Under the pieces are notes generated by a model. The model worked only from the letters and a program-made list of their open reading frames with translations, was not told the DNA's origin and did not search any database. Below, in pieces: positions 47,687 to 51,318 of a stretch of 64,000 bases of DNA; the stretch's first letter is position 1; the number at the start of each line of letters is the position of its first letter. The DNA is from Fibrobacter sp. UWB2 (GTDB taxonomy: Bacteria; Fibrobacterota; Fibrobacteria; Fibrobacterales; Fibrobacteraceae). Where the stretch lies: assembly GCF_002210425.1 (NCBI RefSeq), contig NZ_MWQK01000003.1, positions 372,001-436,000 of the forward strand, given 5' to 3'. Both the position numbers and the translations under genes were made by a program.

Positions 47687-49351
47687 ATGAAATACCCCCT
47701 TTTGAGGTCCCTGCTTACGCTTGGGGCACTCGCTTTGGCTTGTTCGTGTTCAGATGACAAATCGCCCAACAGTGGTGAGTCTTCTTTTGTACCCTGTGAA
47801 GACGCCTGGTACCTGAAAGATTACGGTCTTTTGATGTATCAGGATTTGAAAGTCACTGATCTTAGCGGAAATGAAGTCGGTAAGCTAGTCCCTGTTCAGG
47901 GAACTCTGGTTGCCATCGTCAAGGACTTGTCCGGCAACACCATCATCCCCCAAGTTGATCTTGCTACAACTCCGGTCCTCACGGGTGACCCGACAAAGTG
48001 CAACGCCAACCCTAAGCCGCAGCCAAGCACAGCCATTTCGTCCTGCATTGACGCTTGGTACTTAGCGGCCACCAAGAACTATCTCCTTTATGCAGACCTC
48101 ACGGTGACCGATGAAGCCGGCACGCAGGTCGGCACAATCGTCGCATCCACGGGTTCTTCCCTCGTCAATATAGTTGACCTGTCCGGCAAGCCGATTATCA
48201 ACAACATCGACCTCAATTCGCTCACGCTTATCCACGGCGACAATGTCCGCTACAAGATTTTGGAACCGGCCTTCCACCTGAAGGATGCAACCGGCGACTA
48301 TGTGATTTACCAGAACACGGTCGTCACCATGCCGGACGGCACCCCCATTGGCTACGCCGACTTTGCAACAAACTCCATCAAGTACATCGACCAGGTCACA
48401 GTTCTCACTACGACCTCGAACATCCTTACGCTCCCGATCCTCACGCCGGGCGGAAAATGCGTAGACTACGCCGGTGTAGTCGCCTCCTCGTCGAGCACCA
48501 ACCCGGTTTACAGCAGCTCTTCTGTATATAACCCGCCTAACCCGAACAGCAGCAGTGCAACACCGAAGAGCAGTTCTTCCAAGCCGAAGAGCAGCAGCTC
48601 CGCTCCTCCTCCGAGCAGCAGTTCCGCTCCTGTCACGAACCAGTGCCCGACTATCAAGACTAAGGGCGGTGGCGGTTCTGGTTGGGCTACCCGTTACTGG
48701 GACTGCTGCAAGCCTCACTGCTCCTGGCCAGAACACGCACACGGCAACTACTCCAAGCAGTGCACCAACAAGGGCAAGACCGAAAACACAAACTGGGGCG
48801 ACGGTAGTATCTGCAGCGGCGGTTCCCAGATGACCTGCACAAGCCAGATTCCGTTCACGATTGACGGTTGCACCGAAATGGCATTCGCATTCGCGGCAGT
48901 TCCGGCAGCAAACGGCGGTCAGTGCGGTAAGTGCTTCCAGCTCACCTTCACCGGTACCGGCAAGTATTCTAACGACGCAAACATCAAGAGACTCAAAGGC
49001 AAGAAGCTCATCATCATGGCAACAAACGTTGGTGGCGACGTTCAGCAGGGACAGTTCGACATCATGATCCCGGGTGGTGGCGTCGGTATATTCAACGGAT
49101 GCTCTAGCATGGGCTGGGGCAGCCAGGGCGCTCAATACGGCGGTCTCCTTTCTGATTGCGAAACCGAAACGAAGTACGCCGCAGGCAAATACAAGAGCTG
49201 CCTCACCGAAAAGTGCAACAAGTCCTTCGCCAACGACGAACAGGCAAGAAAGGGATGCCTCTTCCTCGCCGACTGGATGGGCGCAGCAGGCAACCCGGAA
49301 CACAACTACGTCGAAGTGGAATGCCCGCAGGTCCTCAAGGACAAGTACTAA
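47687..49351 (+). CDS. GH45-family endoglucanase with Ser-rich linker, lipoprotein-like
   Basis: The 554-residue protein is predicted to cut cellulose internally. The signal peptide ends LGALALACSCSD, a possible lipobox, so the enzyme may be anchored to the cell surface. Residues 25-270 hold a cysteine-poor region with repeated segments (CEDAWYLKDY; CIDAWYLAAT). A Ser/Pro/Lys linker spans about 272-320. The catalytic domain starts GWATRYWDCCKPHCSWPEH, the GH45 signature, with the likely base D339. The likely acid is D458 in GQFDIMIPGGGVGIFNGC, 119 residues later. GAGGAA precedes the ATG, and a terminator follows. The next gene is a paralog. Confidence 0.9.
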   Translation: MKYPLLRSLLTLGALALACSCSDDKSPNSGESSFVPCEDAWYLKDYGLLMYQDLKVTDLSGNEVGKLVPVQGTLVAIVKDLSGNTIIPQVDLATTPVLTGDPTKCNANPKPQPSTAISSCIDAWYLAATKNYLLYADLTVTDEAGTQVGTIVASTGSSLVNIVDLSGKPIINNIDLNSLTLIHGDNVRYKILEPAFHLKDATGDYVIYQNTVVTMPDGTPIGYADFATNSIKYIDQVTVLTTTSNILTLPILTPGGKCVDYAGVVASSSSTNPVYSSSSVYNPPNPNSSSATPKSSSSKPKSSSSAPPPSSSSAPVTNQCPTIKTKGGGGSGWATRYWDCCKPHCSWPEHAHGNYSKQCTNKGKTENTNWGDGSICSGGSQMTCTSQIPFTIDGCTEMAFAFAAVPAANGGQCGKCFQLTFTGTGKYSNDANIKRLKGKKLIIMATNVGGDVQQGQFDIMIPGGGVGIFNGCSSMGWGSQGAQYGGLLSDCETETKYAAGKYKSCLTEKCNKSFANDEQARKGCLFLADWMGAAGNPEHNYVEVECPQVLKDKY

Positions 49352-49374
49352 TAAAAAAGTCTAAATCGGAACTA

Positions 49375-49405
49375 AACGCCCCGCACAGGGGCGTTTTTCT
49401 TTTTT
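49375..49405 (+). terminator. Terminator of the first endoglucanase gene
   Basis: AACGCCCC and GGGGCGTT pair around GCACA and are followed by TTTCTTTTTT. It lies 24 bp after the stop codon. Confidence 0.93.
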
Positions 49406-49566
49406 GTAAGTCTTTGATAATAAATAAGTTGTGCGTAACTTCACATAATTACATTGTATAGTTCTTTTTACTCTTATTTACGAGCATTTTAGAGGATAAG
49501 ATTTTATCTTTTACCGCGGATGATTGGAATACAGGGTGTGATATATTTACAAGGGCTTATTATATC

Positions 49567-51246
49567 ATGAAGAATAGACTGTTCAAAACCCTCACAATTT
49601 TCGGACTTTCCCTGCTCGCTTGGAACTGCTCCGAAGATCTCTCCTCTGCCACACAAGCTGCAGCTTCGAACCTTCCGTTTACACAGGCAAAGCCTGCTTT
49701 GGAAGTCGATCAGACTTGCTGGATGCTTACTACTGGCTCACAGATTTTCCTTATCGTGCCTAATGGTACCAGCACGTACCTCGTCACCAACGAAGCTAGC
49801 GTTGCTGTAGGCACTTTCGATGTCGCTACTGGCACTATCGTTGATGCAAGCGGCTCCGCCGTTGTCACAAACGTAAAGCTTGAAACACTCCCTGTCGTGA
49901 ACCCGGACAAGACCATTACTTATACCGATGGTTCCAAGGCCACCATTTACGGTGAAACGATTCTCCTTCCGGGCGGAATCGACCCGAACGCCTCCACGAC
50001 GACTCCGGGCACAAGCGTCACTGCAAGCAGCTCCTCTGTCTACAATCCGGGCACGACGCTCCCCACGGTAAGCTCGAGCTCTGCCAAGACACAGACCCCG
50101 ACCCCAGTCGCTTCTTCCTCTTCGCAGAAGACCCAGCAGCCTGTAGCAAGCTCTTCTTCGCAGCAGCAGCCGAAGTCCTCCGCAACCACATCGAACAAGC
50201 AGTGCAATGGCCAGTGCTATGACAGTGCTTCGGGCAAATGCGTTGCCTATTACGATCAGCTGACCGGCTCCAAGGGCGAAAAATACGCCTACGACAATGA
50301 TTGCAAGGTAAACTGCTACTACGATCCTGAAAATAAGAATTGCCAGAACATGACCGGCTCTACACCTTCTCAGCAGCCGAAATCCAGCTCTAGCGTGAAG
50401 TCTTCTTCTTCACAGCAACAGCAGCAGGCAAAATCCTCTTCGTCTCAGCAGCAGCAACAGCCGAAGTCCTCCAGCAGCCAGCCGAAATCTTCGTCTAGCC
50501 AGCAGCAACAGCAGAACAACCCCAACGCTTCCGCCGAAGAAGCCAAGTACCTCAATGCAGGCGCCGGTGGACAGCAGGGCTTTGCCACCCGTTACTGGGA
50601 CTGCTGCATGCCTCACTGCTCCTGGCCAGAACATGGTGGCGCCGCCAAGACTTGCGACGCCAAGGGCAAGACCCCGATCGGCAACACTAACGGCAGTATC
50701 TGCTCCGGCGGCCAGGGCACCACTTGCACAAGCCAGATTCCTATAATCGTGAGCGACAAGCTCGCCTACGCATTCGCAGCAACTCCGGGTAATGACGCCA
50801 CATGCGGCAAGTGCTTCGCCCTCACCTTTACTGGTACCGGCAAGTACGAAACCAAGGCAAACCACCAGGCTCTCAAGGGCAAGACTCTCGTCGTGATGGC
50901 ATCCAATATCGGTTATGACGTGCAAGGCGGTCAGTTCGACATCATGATCCCGGGCGGCGGTTTCGGTGCTTTCAATGGTTGCAGCCAGATGGGCTGGAAC
51001 ATCCCGAGCAACTCCACGACTTACGGCGGTCTCCTCTCCGACTGCGAAAAGGAAGTCGGATACAATGGCGACCTTTTGAACAAACGCAAGCAGTGCCTCA
51101 CCGAAAAGTGCAACAGCGCATTTGCAAGCGACACCCAGGCCAAGGAAGGGTGCCTCTTCCTCGCCACATGGATGGAAGCAGCAGGCAACCCGAACCACAC
51201 TTATAAAGAAGTTGAATGCCCGGCTGCTTTGAAGGCCAAATTCTAA
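49567..51246 (+). CDS. GH45-family endoglucanase with Ser/Gln-rich linkers, lipoprotein-like
   Basis: The 559-residue protein is a tandem paralog of the previous gene. The N-terminus is MKNRLFKTLTIFGLSLLAWN followed by CSED, a relaxed lipoprotein signal. After a short N-terminal domain come two low-complexity linkers around a cysteine-rich module (CNGQCYDSASGKCVAYYD, CYYDPENKNC; about 217-262). The second linker has runs of four to six glutamines between SSSS blocks. The catalytic domain begins GFATRYWDCCMPHCSWPEH with the likely base D345, and has the likely acid D458 in GQFDIMIPGGG. TATATT lies about 30 bp upstream. A terminator follows. Confidence 0.9.
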   Translation: MKNRLFKTLTIFGLSLLAWNCSEDLSSATQAAASNLPFTQAKPALEVDQTCWMLTTGSQIFLIVPNGTSTYLVTNEASVAVGTFDVATGTIVDASGSAVVTNVKLETLPVVNPDKTITYTDGSKATIYGETILLPGGIDPNASTTTPGTSVTASSSSVYNPGTTLPTVSSSSAKTQTPTPVASSSSQKTQQPVASSSSQQQPKSSATTSNKQCNGQCYDSASGKCVAYYDQLTGSKGEKYAYDNDCKVNCYYDPENKNCQNMTGSTPSQQPKSSSSVKSSSSQQQQQAKSSSSQQQQQPKSSSSQPKSSSSQQQQQNNPNASAEEAKYLNAGAGGQQGFATRYWDCCMPHCSWPEHGGAAKTCDAKGKTPIGNTNGSICSGGQGTTCTSQIPIIVSDKLAYAFAATPGNDATCGKCFALTFTGTGKYETKANHQALKGKTLVVMASNIGYDVQGGQFDIMIPGGGFGAFNGCSQMGWNIPSNSTTYGGLLSDCEKEVGYNGDLLNKRKQCLTEKCNSAFASDTQAKEGCLFLATWMEAAGNPNHTYKEVECPAALKAKF

Positions 51247-51293
51247 TCAAAAACGGCCAAAAGCGCTAAGCGTCATAGTCAAAACTTATAGAA

Positions 51294-51318
51294 GCACCCT
51301 CTCAAAGGGTGCTTTTTT
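51294..51318 (+). terminator. Terminator of the second endoglucanase gene
   Basis: GCACCCT and AGGGTGC pair around CTCAA and are followed by six Ts. It lies about 48 bp after the stop codon. Confidence 0.93.

Follow-up and report, generated by a model that had tools for sequence, protein, structure and literature searches.

Tandem GH45 endoglucanases of Fibrobacter sp. UWB2 carry a candidate lipid anchor and an apparently undescribed N-terminal repeat that may be exchanged between lineages

The tandem GH45 locus and its catalytic domains

Fibrobacter is a gut bacterium that digests fibre. The window analysed here (the whole stretch of 64,000 nucleotides, C3:372001-436000) comes from the genome of Fibrobacter sp. 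UWB2, family Fibrobacteraceae (3.53 Mb, 15 contigs), and contains two adjacent genes, gene 1 and gene 2, for the putative surface lipoproteins P1 and P2 (Table 1). The pair is flanked on one side by tuf and ribosomal protein genes (named from sequence) and on the other by HTH, M48 and LemA genes. A terminator-like hairpin follows each of the two genes, so they look like separate transcription units and not an operon. Besides the pair, this genome has two more GH45 genes, four in all: one lies about 52 kb downstream and the other at the edge of a contig.

Table 1. Features of the tandem GH45 locus, in positions of the window.
Feature	Position	Strand	Length or basis
Gene 1 (P1), GH45 endoglucanase, putative surface lipoprotein	47687..49351	+	554 aa
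P1 signal peptide, candidate lipid-anchor Cys (C19 or C21), then S-D-D	47687..47749	+	sequence
P1 N-repeat copy 1, ~60 aa, all-beta (predicted)	47801..47983	+	E 7e-16, profile A2
P1 N-repeat copy 2	48050..48235	+	E 6e-20, profile A2
P1 N-repeat copy 3	48266..48448	+	E 1e-22, profile A2
P1 Ser/Pro/Lys linker	48473..48640	+	translation
P1 GH45 catalytic domain	48677..49345	+	PF02015; D339, D451, D458
Terminator-like hairpin 3' of gene 1	49374..49396	+	consensus match only
Gene 2 (P2), GH45 endoglucanase, putative surface lipoprotein	49567..51246	+	559 aa
P2 signal peptide, candidate lipid-anchor Cys21, then S-E-D	49567..49629	+	Cys invariant in alignment A6
Hypervariable island of gene 2	49600..50150	+	identity profile vs locus L007
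P2 N-repeat, one copy	49717..49905	+	E 2e-21
P2 Cys-rich module, 6 Cys, within Ser/Gln linkers	50197..50355	+	E 6e-28, profile A3
P2 Ser/Gln/Pro/Lys linker	50356..50556	+	translation
P2 GH45 catalytic domain	50578..51231	+	PF02015
Terminator-like hairpin 3' of gene 2	51290..51316	+	consensus match only

Searches with PF02015 gave 116-117.6 bits for P1 and 96.9-100 bits for P2, both far above the curated cut-off of 27 bits. Both proteins also matched solved GH45 endoglucanases in the PDB (E 8e-31 for P1 and 1e-28 for P2), the nearest entries to the catalytic domains being 5gly/5glx and 5h4u. The Asp residues equivalent to D10, D114 and D121 of HiCel45A were present in all aligned GH45 domains (88/88), P1 and P2 included. 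An initial sequence-only reading had proposed two adjacent GH45 genes with the expected aspartates, and this was upheld, no Asp being lost from either protein on alignment. By sequence, P1 and P2 are predicted to be ordinary GH45 cellulases in which the catalytic base, acid and assisting Asp are intact.

The same reading called GH45 best known from fungi and eukaryotes, and the oddness that this implied was not supported: the domain was present in 98 of the 101 Fibrobacteraceae genomes sampled and in 80 of the 121 genomes of the phylum sample, and F. succinogenes S85 has four such genes (PMC3079729). The idea of a rare, eukaryote-derived oddity was therefore rejected as news. Two or three tandem GH45 genes recurred at most of the Fibrobacter loci fetched; given a family that is near-universal in Fibrobacteraceae and an adjacent pair in S85, neither GH45 nor the tandem layout is new. 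In a phylogeny of the catalytic domains, an analysis that the initial reading had proposed, P1-type and P2-type domains formed two separate groups, and the four eukaryotic sequences fell outside both, with other Fibrobacterota, in a tree of few eukaryotes and long branches. A GH45 domain from a Myxococcales MAG (L030:1-1090) paired in this tree with one from another Fibrobacterota family (100/99), a possible inter-phylum transfer.

N-termini, repeats and ancillary modules

In 57 distinct GH45 N-termini a signal sequence leads up to a conserved Cys, after which most have S-D/E-D/E, in agreement with the lipid anchoring first suggested from the N-termini of the pair. The acidic motif varied (SDD/SED/SEE) and the lipobox was non-canonical: the residues ahead of the Cys were often W-N or C-S, many N-termini had N or S at -1, and position -3 held a residue other than Leu. 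In Bacteroidetes, SDDDD and SDDFE work as signals that send lipoproteins to the cell surface (PMC5080379), and because Cys-S-D/E-D/E resembles them, P1/P2-type GH45 enzymes are, by analogy, likely surface lipoproteins. Neither P1 nor P2 matched Por_Secre_tail, the C-terminal domain of T9SS-type sorting, even with E values up to 1 allowed. A lipoprotein reading departs from the published view of S85, whose genome paper gives signal peptide 'No' for Fisuc_1425/1426 in its Table 2 and reports a membrane-anchoring domain in none of its cellulases (PMC3079729). Literature searches gave nothing specific on whether these GH45s are lipoproteins.

Alignment of the N-terminal regions showed that those of P1 and P2 are homologous and built from a repeat of ~60 aa (the N-repeat), present three times in P1 and once in P2, with the core W-L ... 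Y-L-I-Y ... V-T-D ..G..V-G ... I-D..G. The divergent architectures noted at first were thus confirmed in part: the linkers (Ser/Pro/Lys in P1 versus Ser/Gln in P2) and the six-Cys module really differ, but 'unrelated' does not hold, as the N-repeat is common to both. In the window genome, a profile search found the N-repeat only in P1, P2, the third GH45 (one copy) and one stand-alone lipoprotein, and in 14 further genomes the carriers were mostly GH45-sized ORFs or the stand-alone protein. The latter (136 aa, a single repeat; G000 C4:5309-5677, loci L056/L061) is encoded just ahead of a large methyltransferase-like ORF, at a distance of a few bases. Among 61 genomes sampled in the genus, ten others have it at 65-92% identity, a degree of conservation that argues against a decayed GH45.

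The N-terminal domains and the Cys-rich module had been described as unrecognised, and database searches agreed. The N-repeat matched no Pfam or NCBIfam family, the sole outcome of the NCBIfam search being a sub-threshold MiiA-motif match, and PDB sequence searches with the N-repeat and Cys-module profiles returned only noise at E 0.04-0.08. Structure prediction, also proposed at the outset, gave a confident all-beta AF2 model of the three-repeat region of P1 (pLDDT 85.7, pTM 0.57) and a low-confidence model of whole P2 (pLDDT 61). The N-region model had no match in a fold search of the PDB (Foldseek best E 0.015, VIA best Z 4.2, taken as no match), which does not prove that the fold is new. 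Since neither Pfam nor NCBIfam recognises it and the PDB gave no confident match to its fold, the N-repeat appears to be an undescribed family.

The Cys-rich module of P2 (53 aa, six Cys) is the only copy in the window genome. It occurred in seven of nine other Fibrobacter genomes, one copy each, within a GH45-sized ORF of 539-596 aa, and four of the Cys were invariant across eight diverse members. The remaining two, G049 and G061, had an unrelated beta module of ~85 aa in its place in the second of their tandem GH45 ORFs, and one protein from horse faeces had both modules. On these sequence comparisons, the Cys-rich module represents a second unnamed family, interchangeable with the beta module at one position. 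The third tandem GH45 of two closely related sheep-gut loci (L017:5482 and L019:6968) likewise differed by a beta/Cys module swap. The beta module was also found in GH5 cellulases (L139, L142; genomes G029, G010) whose C-terminus weakly matches Por_Secre_tail, which ties the module to polysaccharide degradation.

This sharing with GH5 cellulases, together with the position of the Cys module in the linker ahead of the catalytic domain, a typical place for a carbohydrate-binding module (CBM), would fit an explanation in which the N-repeat, Cys and beta modules are all new CBMs whose variation follows that of plant polysaccharides. Unrecognised CBMs are indeed to be expected, since the cellulases of S85 are without known crystalline-cellulose-binding CBMs (PMC3079729). 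The N-repeat, however, adjoins the putative lipid anchor and so lies away from the substrate, and one lipoprotein has the repeat with no enzyme attached. None of the three modules had a convincing Pfam match or a significant PDB fold match to a known CBM, which is weak evidence, and we consider the CBM explanation rather unlikely.

Mosaic divergence of the GH45 genes

When gene 2 was compared with locus L007, nucleotide identity was 97% from just ahead of the gene into the signal peptide, dropped to 60-72% in the N-domain (the hypervariable island of Table 1), rose to 98-100% in the Cys module and linker (400 bases from 50200), and was 90-99% across the catalytic domain and about 89% past the gene. 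Compared with L015, the catalytic domain reached 99% identity as protein and 89% in fourfold sites, with the neighbouring genes at 43-52% and the N-domain at 46%. The clearest pair among well-assembled genomes was G042 and G075, where fourfold identity, taken at sites that are few and alignment-dependent in strongly diverged stretches, was 27% for the P1 N-domain and 28% for the P2 N-domain versus 86% for M48, 84% for LemA and 87% for the P2 catalytic domain (Fisher p=1.8e-21). The N-domains of close species were ~50% identical, with fourfold sites (27%) at the random level. For the window genome (G000), the difference was significant against G075 (p=8e-6) and G054 (p=1e-4) and not against G049 (p=0.19) or G042 (p=0.11); all of these p-values are per pair and uncorrected, from 21 pairs that share ancestry, and the relatives compared include several MAGs. 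In five relatives, the stand-alone N-repeat protein was 80-92% identical to that of the window genome versus 49-55% for the N-domain of P1 and 48-73% for that of P2.

Fourfold identity so far below that of neighbouring genes indicates that drift alone is insufficient, and replacement by older, diverged alleles could account for it. A fast-drifting spacer under little constraint, with neither exchange nor selection, would agree with the low complexity nearby and with an N-repeat copy number of one to three. We regard it as highly improbable: relaxed constraint should leave fourfold identity unlowered, the N-repeat is well predicted and keeps its conserved core, and the stand-alone protein is conserved. 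The strongest new result is that these GH45 genes are mosaics: an N-domain of an apparently undescribed family varies wildly among close relatives, as if exchanged, while the catalytic part is near-constant.

The first GH45 catalytic domain of L013 (2541-3200) was 100% identical to that of L014 over ~660 bases, between flanks at 65-85%. Both loci are from MAGs, and this pattern could be recent recombination or a chimera. It is also what one would see if the mosaics were artefacts of metagenome assembly, with tandem GH45 genes misjoined. Misassembly is a highly improbable source of the mosaics in general: the pattern also occurs in contiguous, near-complete assemblies (15 contigs for the window genome, ~10 for G054 and ~9 for G034), and what varies is the N-domain, whereas the part present in tandem is the catalytic domain. 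The sequence comparisons directly show the domain content, the catalytic residues, the homology of the repeats, the exchange of modules and the mosaic divergence. Literature searches on recombination in these GH45s found nothing specific.

A surface-tethered model and its relation to known systems

We favour, and hold to be fairly likely, the explanation that these endoglucanases are tethered to the surface and that the module closest to the membrane is diversified through allele exchange. P1 and P2 would be exported, inverting GH45 endo-beta-1,4-glucanases, as their sequences suggest, carrying a lipid on the N-terminal Cys and exposed at the outer surface. One to three N-repeat copies would form a stalk or docking region next to the membrane, followed outward by Ser-rich linkers, to which gene 2 adds an exchangeable ancillary module (Cys-rich or beta) nearer the substrate. 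The outermost catalytic domain would cut cellulose chains held against the cell. Between lineages the N-module would be replaced by recombination, probably under diversifying pressure, with the catalytic domains meanwhile conserved or homogenised. Candidate drivers of the N-domain variation are phage, predator or partner recognition, or ligand specificity. We infer lipidation, outer-surface export, the stalk or docking role of the N-module and the selective cause of its variation. Publications on S85 lend indirect support: FSU_1893 was up 1.36-fold in the envelope on cellulose (PMC6851124), and Fisuc_1426 was detected in a fraction labelled EM (PMC4668043). That fraction is of extracellular type, and detection there could also mean release, which would speak against tethering. 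More tentatively, the N-repeat may be a new class of hypervariable, antigen-like surface module on cell-envelope cellulases. Recombination would swap it among lineages, as an escape from phages, predators or host factors or for a change of binding partner, and would leave the enzyme constant.

It has long been asked how Fibrobacter, with neither cellulosomes nor known cellulose-binding modules, keeps cellulose and its cellulases at the cell surface. The motif for a lipid anchor and the unnamed module family on its conserved GH45 cellulases offer testable parts of an answer. The hypervariable island suggests that a digestive enzyme may face recognition pressure, which would be unexpected for a rumen cellulase.

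Among the closest known systems is that of F. succinogenes S85, which like the window genome has four GH45 genes with two of them adjacent; this pair, Fisuc_1425/FSU_1893 and Fisuc_1426/FSU_1894, has been assayed and has cellulase and xylanase activities (PMC3079729). Judging from the arrangement, P1 and P2 would be the orthologues of Fisuc_1425 and Fisuc_1426. In contrast to our reading of P1 and P2, the S85 genome paper lists the pair without a CBM, anchor or signal peptide (PMC3079729). No description of the N-repeat, Cys and beta modules or of their exchange was found in the literature searched. Fungal GH45 enzymes (HiCel45A and relatives: 2eng, 5gly, 6mvi, 1l8f) and an animal GH45 (5h4u) are alike in the catalytic domain and the three Asp, but the fungal enzymes are not known to carry the modules of Fibrobacter P1 and P2. 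The extra module known from fungal GH45 enzymes, where there is one, is CBM1. Similarly, the surface lipoprotein glycanases of Sus type in Bacteroidetes share the Cys followed by S-D/E-D/E (PMC5080379). Unlike in Sus-type systems, no SusC/SusD was found among the neighbour genes read. Surface antigens have hypervariable domains that vary by allele exchange, and they resemble gene 2 in the sharp-edged variable island between conserved flanks; the difference is that here the variable island lies on a catabolic enzyme.
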